Shown here: in pieces, positions 34,527 to 46,392 of the stretch | Layout: every line of letters begins with the position of its first letter | How positions within the stretch are numbered: the stretch's first letter is position 1 | Origin: an uncultured Verrucomicrobiota bacterium | Lineage (GTDB): Bacteria > Verrucomicrobiota > Kiritimatiellia > RFP12 > UBA3636 | NCBI GenBank assembly: GCA_946624575.1 | Contig: CAMOSH010000009.1 | Span: 1 to 46,392 of the forward strand | Direction of reading: 5' to 3' | DNA length: 46,392 nt | Translations under genes and position numbers: made by a program | Notes under the pieces: model-generated | Databases searched by the model: none | What the model was told of the DNA's origin: nothing | The model's input: only the letters and a program-made list of their open reading frames with translations

Positions 34527-35714
34527 CTAGCGGAGGAGTTCGGCGGGATCGAGGGCAAGGAATTCGGCAAGGGGCATGCCTGCGGGGCCGACGATCAGCG
34601 AGGCGGCGGGGCGGAACCGGCGGCGGAACTCCGCGAGGCCGTCGGTCGAGGCTTCGGCGTTGGTCTTCACCTCGATCGCGGCGAGCCGTTCGCCGCGGCG
34701 CAGGACGTAGTCCACTTCGAGTTCGCCGTCGCGCCAGTAGAGGACGTCGAAGCCCTTGGCGAAGGACTGCGAGAGGAGATGGGCGCCCGCGGCGGATTCG
34801 ACGCACCGCCCCCACTCCTCCGGGTCGTCCACGGCGTCGGCGAAGGTCCGGCCGGAGGCGTAGTTGCGCAGGGCGCTGTTGTGGACCTGCATCTTCGGGA
34901 CGCTCGCACGGCGGCGGGCGGCATCGTTCGCGCACTTGCGGAGTCCGGCCAGGAGACCGCTCGCGTCGAGGAGTCCGAGATATCCCGAGAGCGTCGTCGT
35001 GTTGCCGGCGTCCTGCAGCGAGCCCATCATCTTGGTGAGCGAGAGTTCGCGCCCGGAATACGCGGCGCCGAGCTCGAGCGTCTGGCGCAGGAGCGCGGGC
35101 TTGGAGACCGGGGCGTCGACGAGGACGTCCTTGTTGATCGTCGCGTCGACGATCGACCCACCGACGTACTGCGCCCAGCGCTCGGGGTCGCCGACGAGGG
35201 CCGCCGCGCCCGGATACGCGCCGAACCAGACGTGCTTCTCGGGCGTCCACCCGAAGGCGTCGCGCATTTCGGGGAAGGTCCAGTGCGGCACCCGGATCTG
35301 CTCGAAGCGGCCCGCCATCGAGTCGGCGAGCCCGCGCTCGAGCAGCACGCGCGAGGAACCGCAGAGGACGACCTTGAGCGGAACGTCCGCGAACGAGTCC
35401 GCGTCCCATTCCTTCTTGACCGCCTCGCTCCAGCCGCGGATCTTCTGTATTTCGTCGATCACGAGCGTAAACGACGCGTGGCCGCCAGCGCGAAGTTGCG
35501 TCCGCGCCGATTCCCACGCGGTCCCGATCCATTCCAGGCCGCGGCCTGCGACGGCGTCCGCGCTGTGATAGGCGAACGGGACGCCCGCCGCCGCAAGGGC
35601 CTGCTTGAGCATCGTGGTCTTCCCGACCTGCCGCGGCCCCATCACGACCTGGACGAACCGGCGCGGCTCCTTCAGCCGCGCCACGATCTGCCTGACAAGC
35701 TGTCTTTCGTACAT
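34527..35714 (-). CDS. AAA+ ATPase with DUF4143 C-terminal domain
   Basis: A 395-residue cytosolic protein of the AAA_14/DUF4143 family, common in accessory DNA and of unclear function. Walker A is GPRQVGKTT (residues 26-34), Walker B is TLVIDEIQKI (~82-91), and sensor-like VVLCGSSRVLLERGLADSMAGRFE follows. The C-terminal DUF4143 part has a winged-helix-like segment (LQDAGNTTTLSGYLGLLDASGLL). It ends with a PD-(D/E)XK-like core: ELEVDYVLRRGERLAAIEVKT. The start at 35714 has AAGGAG six bases upstream. It has its own promoter (35767-35794) and is transcribed away from the GntR-type regulator. Confidence 0.92.
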   Translation of the reverse strand: MYERQLVRQIVARLKEPRRFVQVVMGPRQVGKTTMLKQALAAAGVPFAYHSADAVAGRGLEWIGTAWESARTQLRAGGHASFTLVIDEIQKIRGWSEAVKKEWDADSFADVPLKVVLCGSSRVLLERGLADSMAGRFEQIRVPHWTFPEMRDAFGWTPEKHVWFGAYPGAAALVGDPERWAQYVGGSIVDATINKDVLVDAPVSKPALLRQTLELGAAYSGRELSLTKMMGSLQDAGNTTTLSGYLGLLDASGLLAGLRKCANDAARRRASVPKMQVHNSALRNYASGRTFADAVDDPEEWGRCVESAAGAHLLSQSFAKGFDVLYWRDGELEVDYVLRRGERLAAIEVKTNAEASTDGLAEFRRRFRPAASLIVGPAGMPLAEFLALDPAELLR

Positions 35715-44259: not shown

Positions 44260-44320
44260 TGCGCCCCGAACGGGGGGCCGCCGCACCCCGTCGCGCCCGC
44301 CACCGGCACCGAAAACGGCC

Positions 44321-44349
44321 TTGAACCCGGTCCCGGGATGTGGTAGTCT
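44321..44349 (+). promoter_or_regulatory. promoter-like sequence in the non-coding stretch
   Basis: TTGAAC (44321-44326), a 17-base spacer and TAGTCT (44344-44349). No gene lies directly downstream, so it may drive a small RNA or be a chance match. Confidence 0.3.
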
Positions 44350-44563
44350 CTCCCTTGTCCGCAAGGAAGCCCCGGCGGATGCTGGCTACGCAGCGGATGT
44401 TGCGCTGGCTAGTTGATGTCGGGAGGTAATTACGAACCATGAACCTTTCGTTTTCAGGTCGTTAAGGCCCTGCGCCCGGACTGGTGACGCGCGCGGCGCT
44501 TTGCGTCGCCGGCGGCGCCCTCCTCGCCTTGGGTAATTGCGGGGTCTGTCTCCGGATGGATTG

Positions 44564-44625
44564 AAACCATTCCATGTATTGATATGGAATGGTTTGATCT
44601 TTTCCATATCGACGTATGGAATGGT
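44564..44625 (+). promoter_or_regulatory. double dyad operator upstream of the DUF4143 ATPase
   Basis: A perfect 12-base inverted repeat AAACCATTCCAT (44564-44575)/ATGGAATGGTTT (44584-44595) has an 8-base loop. It is followed by a second dyad TTCCATA/TATGGAA (44602-44621), whose right half repeats ATGGAATGGT (44616-44625). The second dyad ends just before the -35 box, so a bound protein would control the promoter. Confidence 0.75.
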
Positions 44626-44626
44626 G

Positions 44627-44655
44627 TTGACTTTCACGCGGCGATGCGGTAGCAT
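44627..44655 (+). promoter_or_regulatory. sigma70-type promoter giving a nearly leaderless message
   Basis: -35 TTGACT (44627-44632), a 17-base spacer, -10 TAGCAT (44650-44655). The ATPase start codon is at 44666, only ten bases after the -10 box, so transcription should start within about five bases of the ATG. No ribosome site is possible. Confidence 0.65.
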
Positions 44656-44665
44656 TCTCGTTGCA

Positions 44666-45868
44666 ATGAATGACATTCCACGCCTATATGAGGACATCGT
44701 CCGCCGCCATTTGAGCCGCGACAGGCAGATGATTTTCATCTCCGGCCCCCGCCAGGTTGGAAAGACCACGCTTTGCGAAGGCATATCGACTCTCCATTTG
44801 AATTGGGACAACGCATCCCATCGTGCGATTATCCTTGGCGGAGAGGAAAAGATCGCCGACTTCGCAGGACTTGACCGCGCACGCGCCGAACCGCCCGTCC
44901 TGGTTCTGGACGAGCTGCACCACTTCAACGGGTGGAAGCGGCTCCTGAAAGGCTTTTTTGACGTTTACGGGAAGCGCGTCCGCGTCATTGTGACCGGCTC
45001 GGCGCGGCTCGACGTCTTCAAAAAAAGCGGGGACAGCCTCATGGGGCGCTATTTCCCATACCGCATGCATCCGCTCTCGGTCGGCGAACTTCTTCGGCCC
45101 GTTCAGCCGGATGGCGTCATTTTGCCGCCGGCAAGGCCCGGAAGCGACATTTGGGACGCATTGCTGCGGCTTGGCGGATTTCCGGAGCCGTTCGCGAAAG
45201 GAGATGCCGCTTTTCTCGCTCGCTGGCACAGGCTGCGCTTTGAACAGCTCGTCCGCGAGGACATCCGCAGGGACACGGCCATCCGCGAACTCGATCAGAT
45301 GGAGTCCATGGCCCGGATCCTTGCCACCCGCTCCGGCGAGCAGCTCGTCTGGTCTTCGCTCGGAGCCGAAGTCCAGGTCGGTGAAATCACCGCCCGCAAT
45401 TGGACGTCCGTGCTGGAATCGTTTTTCTTTGGCTTCCGCGTCAGGCCTTGGGCGCGCGACATTGCCGGCGCGCTCCGCAAGACGCCGAAATGGTATCTCC
45501 GCGACTGGTCGCGCATCCGCGATCCCGGGAAACGGAACGAAACGATGCTGGCCTGCCATTTGCTCAAGGCCGCGCAGCTCTGGACGGATCTTGGGCTGGG
45601 GGAATTTGAACTGTTCTACGTCCGCGACAAACGCGGGAAGACGGAGGTCGATTTCCTCCTGTCAAAGGACGGCGAACCATGGCTAGTGGCTGAATGCAAG
45701 AGCGGCGACGCAAAGGTCTCCCCATCGCTCCGGACGGTGCAAAACGCCACGCGGGCACCGCATGCCTTCCAGGTCGTTTTCTCCCTGCCATACGAGGAAC
45801 TGGACTGCTTTGCGCTCGACGGCCCCTTCGCCGTGCCTGCGCAGACGCTCCTTTCTCAATTGCCGTAA
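44666..45868 (+). CDS. AAA+ ATPase with DUF4143-like nuclease-fold C-terminus
   Basis: A 400-residue protein from ATG 44666. An upstream in-frame ATG at 44537 would run through the operator and promoter and is rejected. Walker A is GPRQVGKTT (residues 27-35), Walker B is PVLVLDELHHF (~82-92), then VIVTGSARLDVFKKSGDSLMGRYF. The middle has the winged-helix-like region (ILATRSGEQLVWSSLGAEVQ). It ends with a PD-(D/E)XK-like core: GKTEVDFLLSKDGEP then LVAECKSGD. It belongs to the same broad family as the ATPase at 34527-35714 but is clearly diverged. It is a stand-alone gene flanked by GGGACAGAC-type repeats, and the ATPase is possibly autoregulated. Confidence 0.92.
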   Translation: MNDIPRLYEDIVRRHLSRDRQMIFISGPRQVGKTTLCEGISTLHLNWDNASHRAIILGGEEKIADFAGLDRARAEPPVLVLDELHHFNGWKRLLKGFFDVYGKRVRVIVTGSARLDVFKKSGDSLMGRYFPYRMHPLSVGELLRPVQPDGVILPPARPGSDIWDALLRLGGFPEPFAKGDAAFLARWHRLRFEQLVREDIRRDTAIRELDQMESMARILATRSGEQLVWSSLGAEVQVGEITARNWTSVLESFFFGFRVRPWARDIAGALRKTPKWYLRDWSRIRDPGKRNETMLACHLLKAAQLWTDLGLGEFELFYVRDKRGKTEVDFLLSKDGEPWLVAECKSGDAKVSPSLRTVQNATRAPHAFQVVFSLPYEELDCFALDGPFAVPAQTLLSQLP

Positions 45869-45930
45869 AGAGAAGGGCACAAGGCAACCGGCAGGATCAG
45901 GGTCCGGCGCCAACGGAGGCTGTTTCGGAG

Positions 45931-46092
45931 TCTGTCCCCGTGGGTTTCAGAGCCAGCGGCGGGGACAGACCTCGGTGGAGCCAGCGGAGCCAGGAGCCAG
46001 CGGGGACAGACCTCGGCGGGGAGCCCGGGAGCCAGCGGGGACAGAGCCAGCGGGGACAGAGCCAGCGGGGACAGACCTCGGCGGGGAGCCCG
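45931..46092. repeat. GGGACAGAC-type repeat array
   Basis: It opens with the inverted pair TCTGTCCCCG (45931-45940)/CGGGGACAGA (45960-45969). Units of AGCCAGCGGGGACAG follow at 45995, 46030, 46045 and 46060. The last three are in exact 15-base tandem. Two units are extended by ACCTCGGCGGGGAGCCCG. A related GGGGTCTGTCTCCG lies at 44541-44554, before the ATPase gene. Confidence 0.85.
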
Positions 46093-46173
46093 AAACAGGG
46101 CGAGGCCGAACCGGGCCGGCATGTTCCTTCTGATTCCGGGCAAACTGCCGAATATTAGCAGAATGTCCTCCTG

Positions 46174-46201
46174 AAAATGTCGCCTGACAGGCGACATTTT
46201 T
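46174..46201. terminator. strong hairpin with T-run
   Basis: The arms AAAATGTCGCC (46174-46184) and GGCGACATTTT (46190-46200) are perfect, with loop TGACA and a following T. The symmetrical A/T ends would let it work on both strands as an intrinsic terminator. It lies about 300 bases after the ATPase gene. Confidence 0.65.
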
Positions 46202-46392
46202 CGGTTTCGTTTCCGGCATTCTTTACGCCGTGCGAGGGACAGCCCCCCCCCGCCGCCGCCCCCATATCCGGGGGCGGACACGGCAAACCGGCCCCCCAAC
46301 GCGGGCGCAATCAGCAAACCGCCCCCCAACGCGGGGGCAGACAACCAACACGAGGGACAGACCCATGCGAACAGCAAGAACCATCGCCGACG
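46202..46392. repeat. palindromic and tandem GC-rich repeats at the window end
   Basis: No gene is visible. CGCCCCC/GGGGGCG flanks ATATCC at 46257-46276. Two near-identical copies of GCAAACCG(G)CCCCCCAACGCGGGSGCA stand at 46283-46309 and 46314-46339 with a 31-base period. GAGGGACAG occurs at about 46234 and GAGGGACAGACCC at about 46352, further members of the neighbouring repeat family. Confidence 0.7.

Follow-up and report, generated by a model that had tools for sequence, protein, structure and literature searches.

What reads the two inverted repeats that stand directly in front of a DUF4143 ATPase gene in the window (the whole 46,392-nucleotide stretch of DNA analysed here), and what do they control? 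The region is very probably an autogenous operator-promoter that is read by the DUF4143 protein itself. The elements concerned are as follows.

44566 to 44593, no strand: dyad 1, half-sites ACCATTCCAT (44566-44575) and ATGGAATGGT (44584-44593) around an 8-bp gap, 28 bp overall
44598 to 44625, no strand: dyad 2, with a degenerate half-site on the left, TCTTTTCCAT (44598-44607), and a perfect one on the right, ATGGAATGGT (44616-44625)
44627 to 44632, plus strand: -35 box TTGACT, one base 3′ of dyad 2, from a promoter scan
44650 to 44655, plus strand: -10 box TAGCAT, after a 17-bp spacer, from a promoter scan
44666 to 45868, plus strand: AAA_14-DUF4143 ATPase gene, 400 amino acids, a PADLOC PDC-S01 candidate

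The initial annotation had placed two dyads just upstream of a -35/-10 pair, and this arrangement was borne out. It had also counted three copies of a repeat within the two dyads. Three exact copies of ATGGAATGGT are indeed present in the window (44566-44575 on the minus strand, 44584-44593 and 44616-44625 on the plus strand), but a fourth, degenerate half-site that retains only TTCCAT brings the number of half-sites to four. When one mismatch was allowed, six matches to ATGGAATGGT were obtained in the window against 1.0 expected, and six were reached in none of 100 shuffles. Dyad 1 has the form AAACCATTCCAT-N8-ATGGAATGGTTT with perfect 12-bp arms; one arm of dyad 2 is perfect and the other is shorter (TTCCAT, 44602-44607), and the complementarity of its 24-bp composite repeat amounts to 83%. 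Each dyad covers 28 bp (10-8-10), and the dyad period is 32 bp, or about three helical turns. A search for CCATTCCAT-N8-ATGGAATGG with up to three mismatches returned only these two dyads from the whole 3.95-Mb genome. Among the 11 genomes of the genus that were searched, the operator occurs in only three, those with an orthologue of at least 83% identity, and in each of them its coordinates lie just upstream of the orthologue gene. A global regulator with a regulon was also considered and was rejected because the operator is unique in the genome.

TTGACT-17-TAGCAT is the sole promoter-like match in a scan of positions 44300-46392, and both boxes are near consensus. The ATG at 44666 follows the -10 box at exactly 10 nt, as had been claimed, and this start codon is aligned across homologues. 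By inference from the promoter position alone, the ATPase gene is predicted to be leaderless, with a transcript start at or within a few nucleotides of the ATG.

The initial annotation had named the absence of the dyads from homologous loci as an outcome that would speak against an operator, and the search found them across phyla. A contig search gave 80 relative loci (46-99% identity), mostly from metagenome-assembled genomes (MAGs), and further loci were taken from whole genomes; the relatives belong to Kiritimatiellae, Lentisphaerae, Opitutae, Armatimonadota, Acidobacteria, Gammaproteobacteria, Planctomycetota, FCPU426, Spirochaetia and other groups. Dyads precede the ATG in nearly all of these loci. 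The best arm-10 palindrome score was 8.4 in 78 homologue upstream regions, whereas dinucleotide shuffles gave 6.53 (z ~24); the peak that stood out most was at a period of 32 bp (13.7 vs 10.4). When 85 non-redundant loci were aligned by EM, the half-site had strong outer bases ACCA (ACCA...TGGT) and variable inner bases; most of these homologues carry two dyads at the 32-bp period together with a predicted leaderless promoter. These comparisons show that the architecture is conserved and that the operator is linked to the gene.

The placement of the dyads was counted in the 74 best-scoring of the 85 aligned loci and falls into two groups. In 50 of the 74, dyad 2 ends 2-8 nt 5′ of the ATG, and the promoter is formed by a TTGAC where the two dyads join and by an ATAAT-like element within the right arm of dyad 2. 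In 22 loci of a Kiritimatiellae type, one of which is that of the window, the dyads are shifted upstream by one period, so that dyad 2 ends 36-40 nt 5′ of the ATG and the -35 box follows directly. With either placement, transcription is expected to start at the ATG or close to it. Some homologues (L080, L131, L130 and L042) have no clear paired site in this register. Tandem ATPase gene pairs were also observed (L033, L034, L111 at G100:C96:48354-50924, and L180/L198 at G678:C68), with copies approximately 71% and 67% identical to the window gene and an operator-like site upstream of each copy. The distribution of the gene is patchy. No close relatives were found in viral contigs; relatives in phage records are only 23-26% identical, and plasmid relatives reach up to 43%.

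An extension of the operator to all DUF4143 proteins was tried and rejected. Among divergent subfamilies, upstream dyads were detected in 11 of 31 at p≤0.05, compared with 9 of 78 control ORFs, and are therefore enriched yet far from universal, which restricts the claim to a clade of approximately 40-100% identity and several paralogues. In DUF4143 paralogues of the window's own genome (L008, L009, L012 and L018), the ATG is preceded by strong dyads whose sequences are unrelated, for example TCGTGCAAATGG...CCATTTGCACGA and GTGAAAATCCGAA...TTCGGATTTTCAC, and these dyads suggest that private operators exist in further DUF4143 subfamilies. The genome holds 23 DUF4143 genes. A second, divergent DUF4143 ATPase gene within the window (34662-35696, minus strand) has no obvious upstream dyad.

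The protein combines an ATPase with a candidate DNA-reading domain, and its parts are encoded as follows.

44723 to 45094, plus strand: AAA_14 ATPase domain, residues 20-143, with invariant G27/G32/K33/T34 and D82/E83
45290 to 45448, plus strand: winged helix-turn-helix (wHTH) within DUF4143, residues 209-261, AlphaFold model, pLDDT 93.4
45383 to 45421, plus strand: recognition helix, residues 240-252 (E240, I241, R244 and N245 at its start), holding the top covarying columns for the inner operator bases
45524 to 45778, plus strand: putative C-terminal PD-(D/E)XK-like segment with invariant E292, D329, E343 and K345, model

Pfam assigns PF13173 (AAA_14) at 80.7 bits (cut-off 27) and PF13635 (DUF4143) at 72.3 bits (cut-off 28.1). 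The Walker A and B motifs are intact, with G27, G32, K33, T34, D82 and E83 invariant in 45 homologues. In the AlphaFold model, the wHTH is built from helices 209-220, 229-235 and 240-252 and a wing strand at 256-261; from these helix limits, residues 240, 241, 244 and 245 open the recognition helix. E292, D329, E343 and K345 are invariant among homologues and are located on an alpha/beta C-terminal domain in the same model. This domain appears to be PD-(D/E)XK-like, the superfamily assignment being the one given for PDC-S01 in PMC12988326. Since the Walker motifs and the E292/D329/E343/K345 set are kept, the protein is plausibly an ATP-driven nuclease that would need dosage control. Foldseek returned only matches of the AAA+ class (clamp loaders, RuvB and Orc1/Cdc6) at a low TM of ~0.3, which is read as a fold class only, and a sequence search found no relative of known structure.

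The inner operator bases covary with the recognition helix of the ATPase. Approximately 400 protein columns were compared with operator positions, and overall identity was regressed out over 2701 pairs. Residue 240 is the top column both for operator positions 5-8 (r 0.51) and for positions 7-11 (r 0.52), with runner-up columns at r 0.22 and 0.37, respectively; the leading columns include 241, 245, 239 and 230, and the covarying residues fall within 'SSLGAEVQVGEITARNWTSVLE'. As a control, the conserved outer positions 1-4 did not indicate any helix column (best r 0.30). The associations can be stated residue by residue. E or D at 240 goes with C8 (22/24 vs 4/50 otherwise), V240 with T7 (20/23 vs 6/51) and P240 with A7 (12/12 vs 14/62), while K241 accompanies G9-G10 in 10 of 10 cases, N241 accompanies GC at 9-10, and R245 is found with G11 in 35 of 37 cases compared with 0 of 37 otherwise. 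Exceptions to this code occur: among the E240 proteins, several whose residue 241 is K or T have CT, not CC. A contrast is also seen within one genome: the window gene has E240 and an operator with ATTCC, whereas a 47% identical paralogue on C161 has P240 and the operator AAAATCGA.

Shared ancestry could produce such associations. In nearest-neighbour prediction of the operator, the helix alone had no advantage over the remainder of the protein taken as a whole (4.50 vs 4.42), indicating that phylogeny alone carries signal, and tree-based tests were therefore used. Independence was rejected by Pagel tests for which the tree had been computed with the wHTH columns left out (p 2.7e-3 to 1.3e-7), and column 240 ranked first of 284 in 37 independent closest pairs (p 1e-4). 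The four helix residues predicted the operator at 4.50, compared with at most 3.89 for any of 1000 random four-column sets. The main associations recurred in another non-redundant sample, which comprised 31 genes, 26 of them with the site in register, and prediction from the helix beat the average operator in all 26. Phylogenetic confounding is reduced, not removed. Because the inner operator bases track its recognition helix, the ATPase most likely binds its own operator through the internal wHTH, as judged from these sequence comparisons. The initial annotation had left the choice of binder between the protein itself and an unlinked repressor; the covariation clearly favours the former and speaks against the latter.

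On this basis, the DUF4143 protein would bind the four half-sites through the recognition helix that starts at residue 240, most likely as dimers on two dyads that lie three helical turns apart on one face of the DNA. The bound protein would block, or at least gate, the adjoining promoter, from which the transcript would start at or next to the ATG. Self-repression would then most likely hold the ATPase at a low level, by direct occlusion in the larger group of loci and by proximity in the group of the window, and release might be brought about by the ATP state or by an invader-linked signal. The protein itself would be a nuclease effector that is kept scarce. We infer the oligomeric state, the release, the effector role and also the sign, which is read as repression because the dyads overlap the promoter; dyad 2 lies over it in the larger group only, and in the window's own group the dyads are upstream of the -35 box.

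The sign could also be the opposite, in that the ATPase binds its own dyads to activate the promoter and thereby forms a positive feedback switch. In 22 of the 74 loci, that of the window among them, the dyads are situated just 5′ of the -35 box, a position compatible with activation. In 50 of the 74, however, dyad 2 covers both the -35 and -10 elements, which fits occlusion, and the promoter boxes are already near consensus; activation is accordingly regarded as improbable. A regulator encoded elsewhere that controls the ATPase gene by binding to the dyads would be in keeping with the many separate repressors that act on dyad operators. It is very improbable, given that the inner bases follow the ATPase helix in two samples, also after tree correction, and that the operator travels with the gene across phyla, with no second site in the genome and no shared neighbour. 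In a set of 2313 ORFs on either side of 85 homologues, recurrence in more than two loci was confined to other AAA_14/DUF4143-type ATPases, and none of the 85 loci had a conserved neighbouring ORF of at least 60 amino acids as a candidate regulator or partner. Since nothing is shared except ATPase paralogues, a repressor is unlikely to be encoded by a neighbouring or an unlinked gene.

The dyads might, moreover, be target or recombination sites of the ATPase-nuclease, as part of a selfish or mobile gene, and have no regulatory role. The invariant PD-(D/E)XK-like residues, the patchy distribution and the existence of tandem duplicates are in line with this possibility. The register of the dyads to the promoter and ATG is nevertheless fixed in nearly all loci, and no further copy of the operator exists in the genome, the region downstream of the gene included, so that target sites are a highly unlikely explanation. 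Finally, the inverted repeats are almost certainly not a transcription terminator or an RNA hairpin belonging to the gene upstream. The dyad 1 hairpin is detected by a terminator scan and also by an Rfam miRNA match (Rfam gave only sub-threshold hairpin matches at the dyad), but this hairpin is a consequence of dyad symmetry, its stem is followed only by a broken T run, the dyads overlap the promoter in other loci, and covariation with a protein helix would be left unexplained.

The autogenous operator-promoter can be compared with known systems. Antitoxins and the C proteins of restriction-modification systems are gene-linked DNA binders that act on dyads beside their own promoter, with little or no leader, and DnaA is an AAA+ DNA-binding protein that regulates its own gene. 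The locus resembles toxin-antitoxin and C-protein control in having a gene-linked binder on dyads next to its own promoter, but in this case the ATPase/nuclease itself contains the DNA-binding domain, with no separate antitoxin or C protein, and the two linked genes of a toxin-antitoxin system were not found across the 85 loci. With Orc1/Cdc6, the protein shares the AAA+ fold class and the order of an ATPase followed by a DNA-reading domain; it differs in its short AAA_14 domain, its wHTH inside DUF4143 and its PD-(D/E)XK-like end. RptR-type repressors of phage-defence islands likewise control defence genes through DNA binding, although RptR is a dedicated repressor (PMC12255303), whereas the window locus would show self-control by a candidate effector.

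The suggestion that this is a defence gene is compatible with a match to the PADLOC profile PDLC04790 (PDC-S01) over residues 4-395 (143.7 bits, E 1.6e-42), which confers candidate status only. PDC-S01, an AAA ATPase fused to PD-(D/E)XK, corresponds to the window gene in its whole-protein profile, one-gene unit, patchy distribution and many paralogues. According to PMC12988326, it ranks fourth in frequency among defence (candidate) systems of prokaryotes and is experimentally unvalidated; the passages on PDC-S01 in the literature searched describe no regulation, operator or recognition code, unlike the locus in the window. The Thermus thermophilus gene TT_RS11170 on pTT27 matches PDC-S01 (E 5e-109), and at this locus (L231, 13854-15120) a perfect dyad with 6-bp arms, TGAATG-N5-CATTCA, lies over TATCAT, a putative -10 element, a few nucleotides before the ATG. 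From its expected place on pTT27, the annotation points to TT_RS11170 being TT_P0211, which is up 6.6-fold with a plasmid present in an Argonaute-positive Thermus strain (PMC4406477). This single Thermus case hints that foreign DNA induces a PDC-S01-type gene. A possible, if doubtful, generalization would make the PDC-S01/DUF4143 ATPases a very large class of self-gated systems, each consisting of a single gene. In these, one and the same wHTH would silence the gene at its private operator and take part in sensing or targeting invader DNA, foreign DNA or another signal would free or induce the effector, and diversification of helix and operator would insulate paralogues from one another.

Autoregulated defence-type genes are already known as a general kind. 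The literature searched contains almost nothing on DUF4143, a name that a single paper there uses, and no account was found in it of a DUF4143/PDC-S01 ATPase whose internal wHTH reads the operator of its own gene, conserved across phyla and with a predictive code. The family thus gains a predicted activity, the sequence-specific binding of its own promoter, and the residue-to-base code predicts the operator of an unseen member, so that binding, induction and defence become directly testable. It also suggests separate switches for 23 such genes in one genome.

Two further elements were observed near the gene. On its 3′ side, at 45940-46080, short tandem repeats of the GGGGACAGA(CC/GCC) type were seen by eye. 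On its 5′ side, at 44320-44423, a promoter TTGAAC-17-TAGTCT precedes a compact leader that appears to be structured, CCCCGGCGGATGCTGGCTACGCAGCGG...GCGCTGGCTAGTTGATGTCGGG. This leader had no Rfam match and was not found in the sampled genomes outside the genus; its MFE z was -3.1 for the window copy and -0.2 for another copy. Within genomes of the genus, it is present in at least 12 copies, each before a different sequence, and it is possibly an unnamed genus-specific leader RNA.
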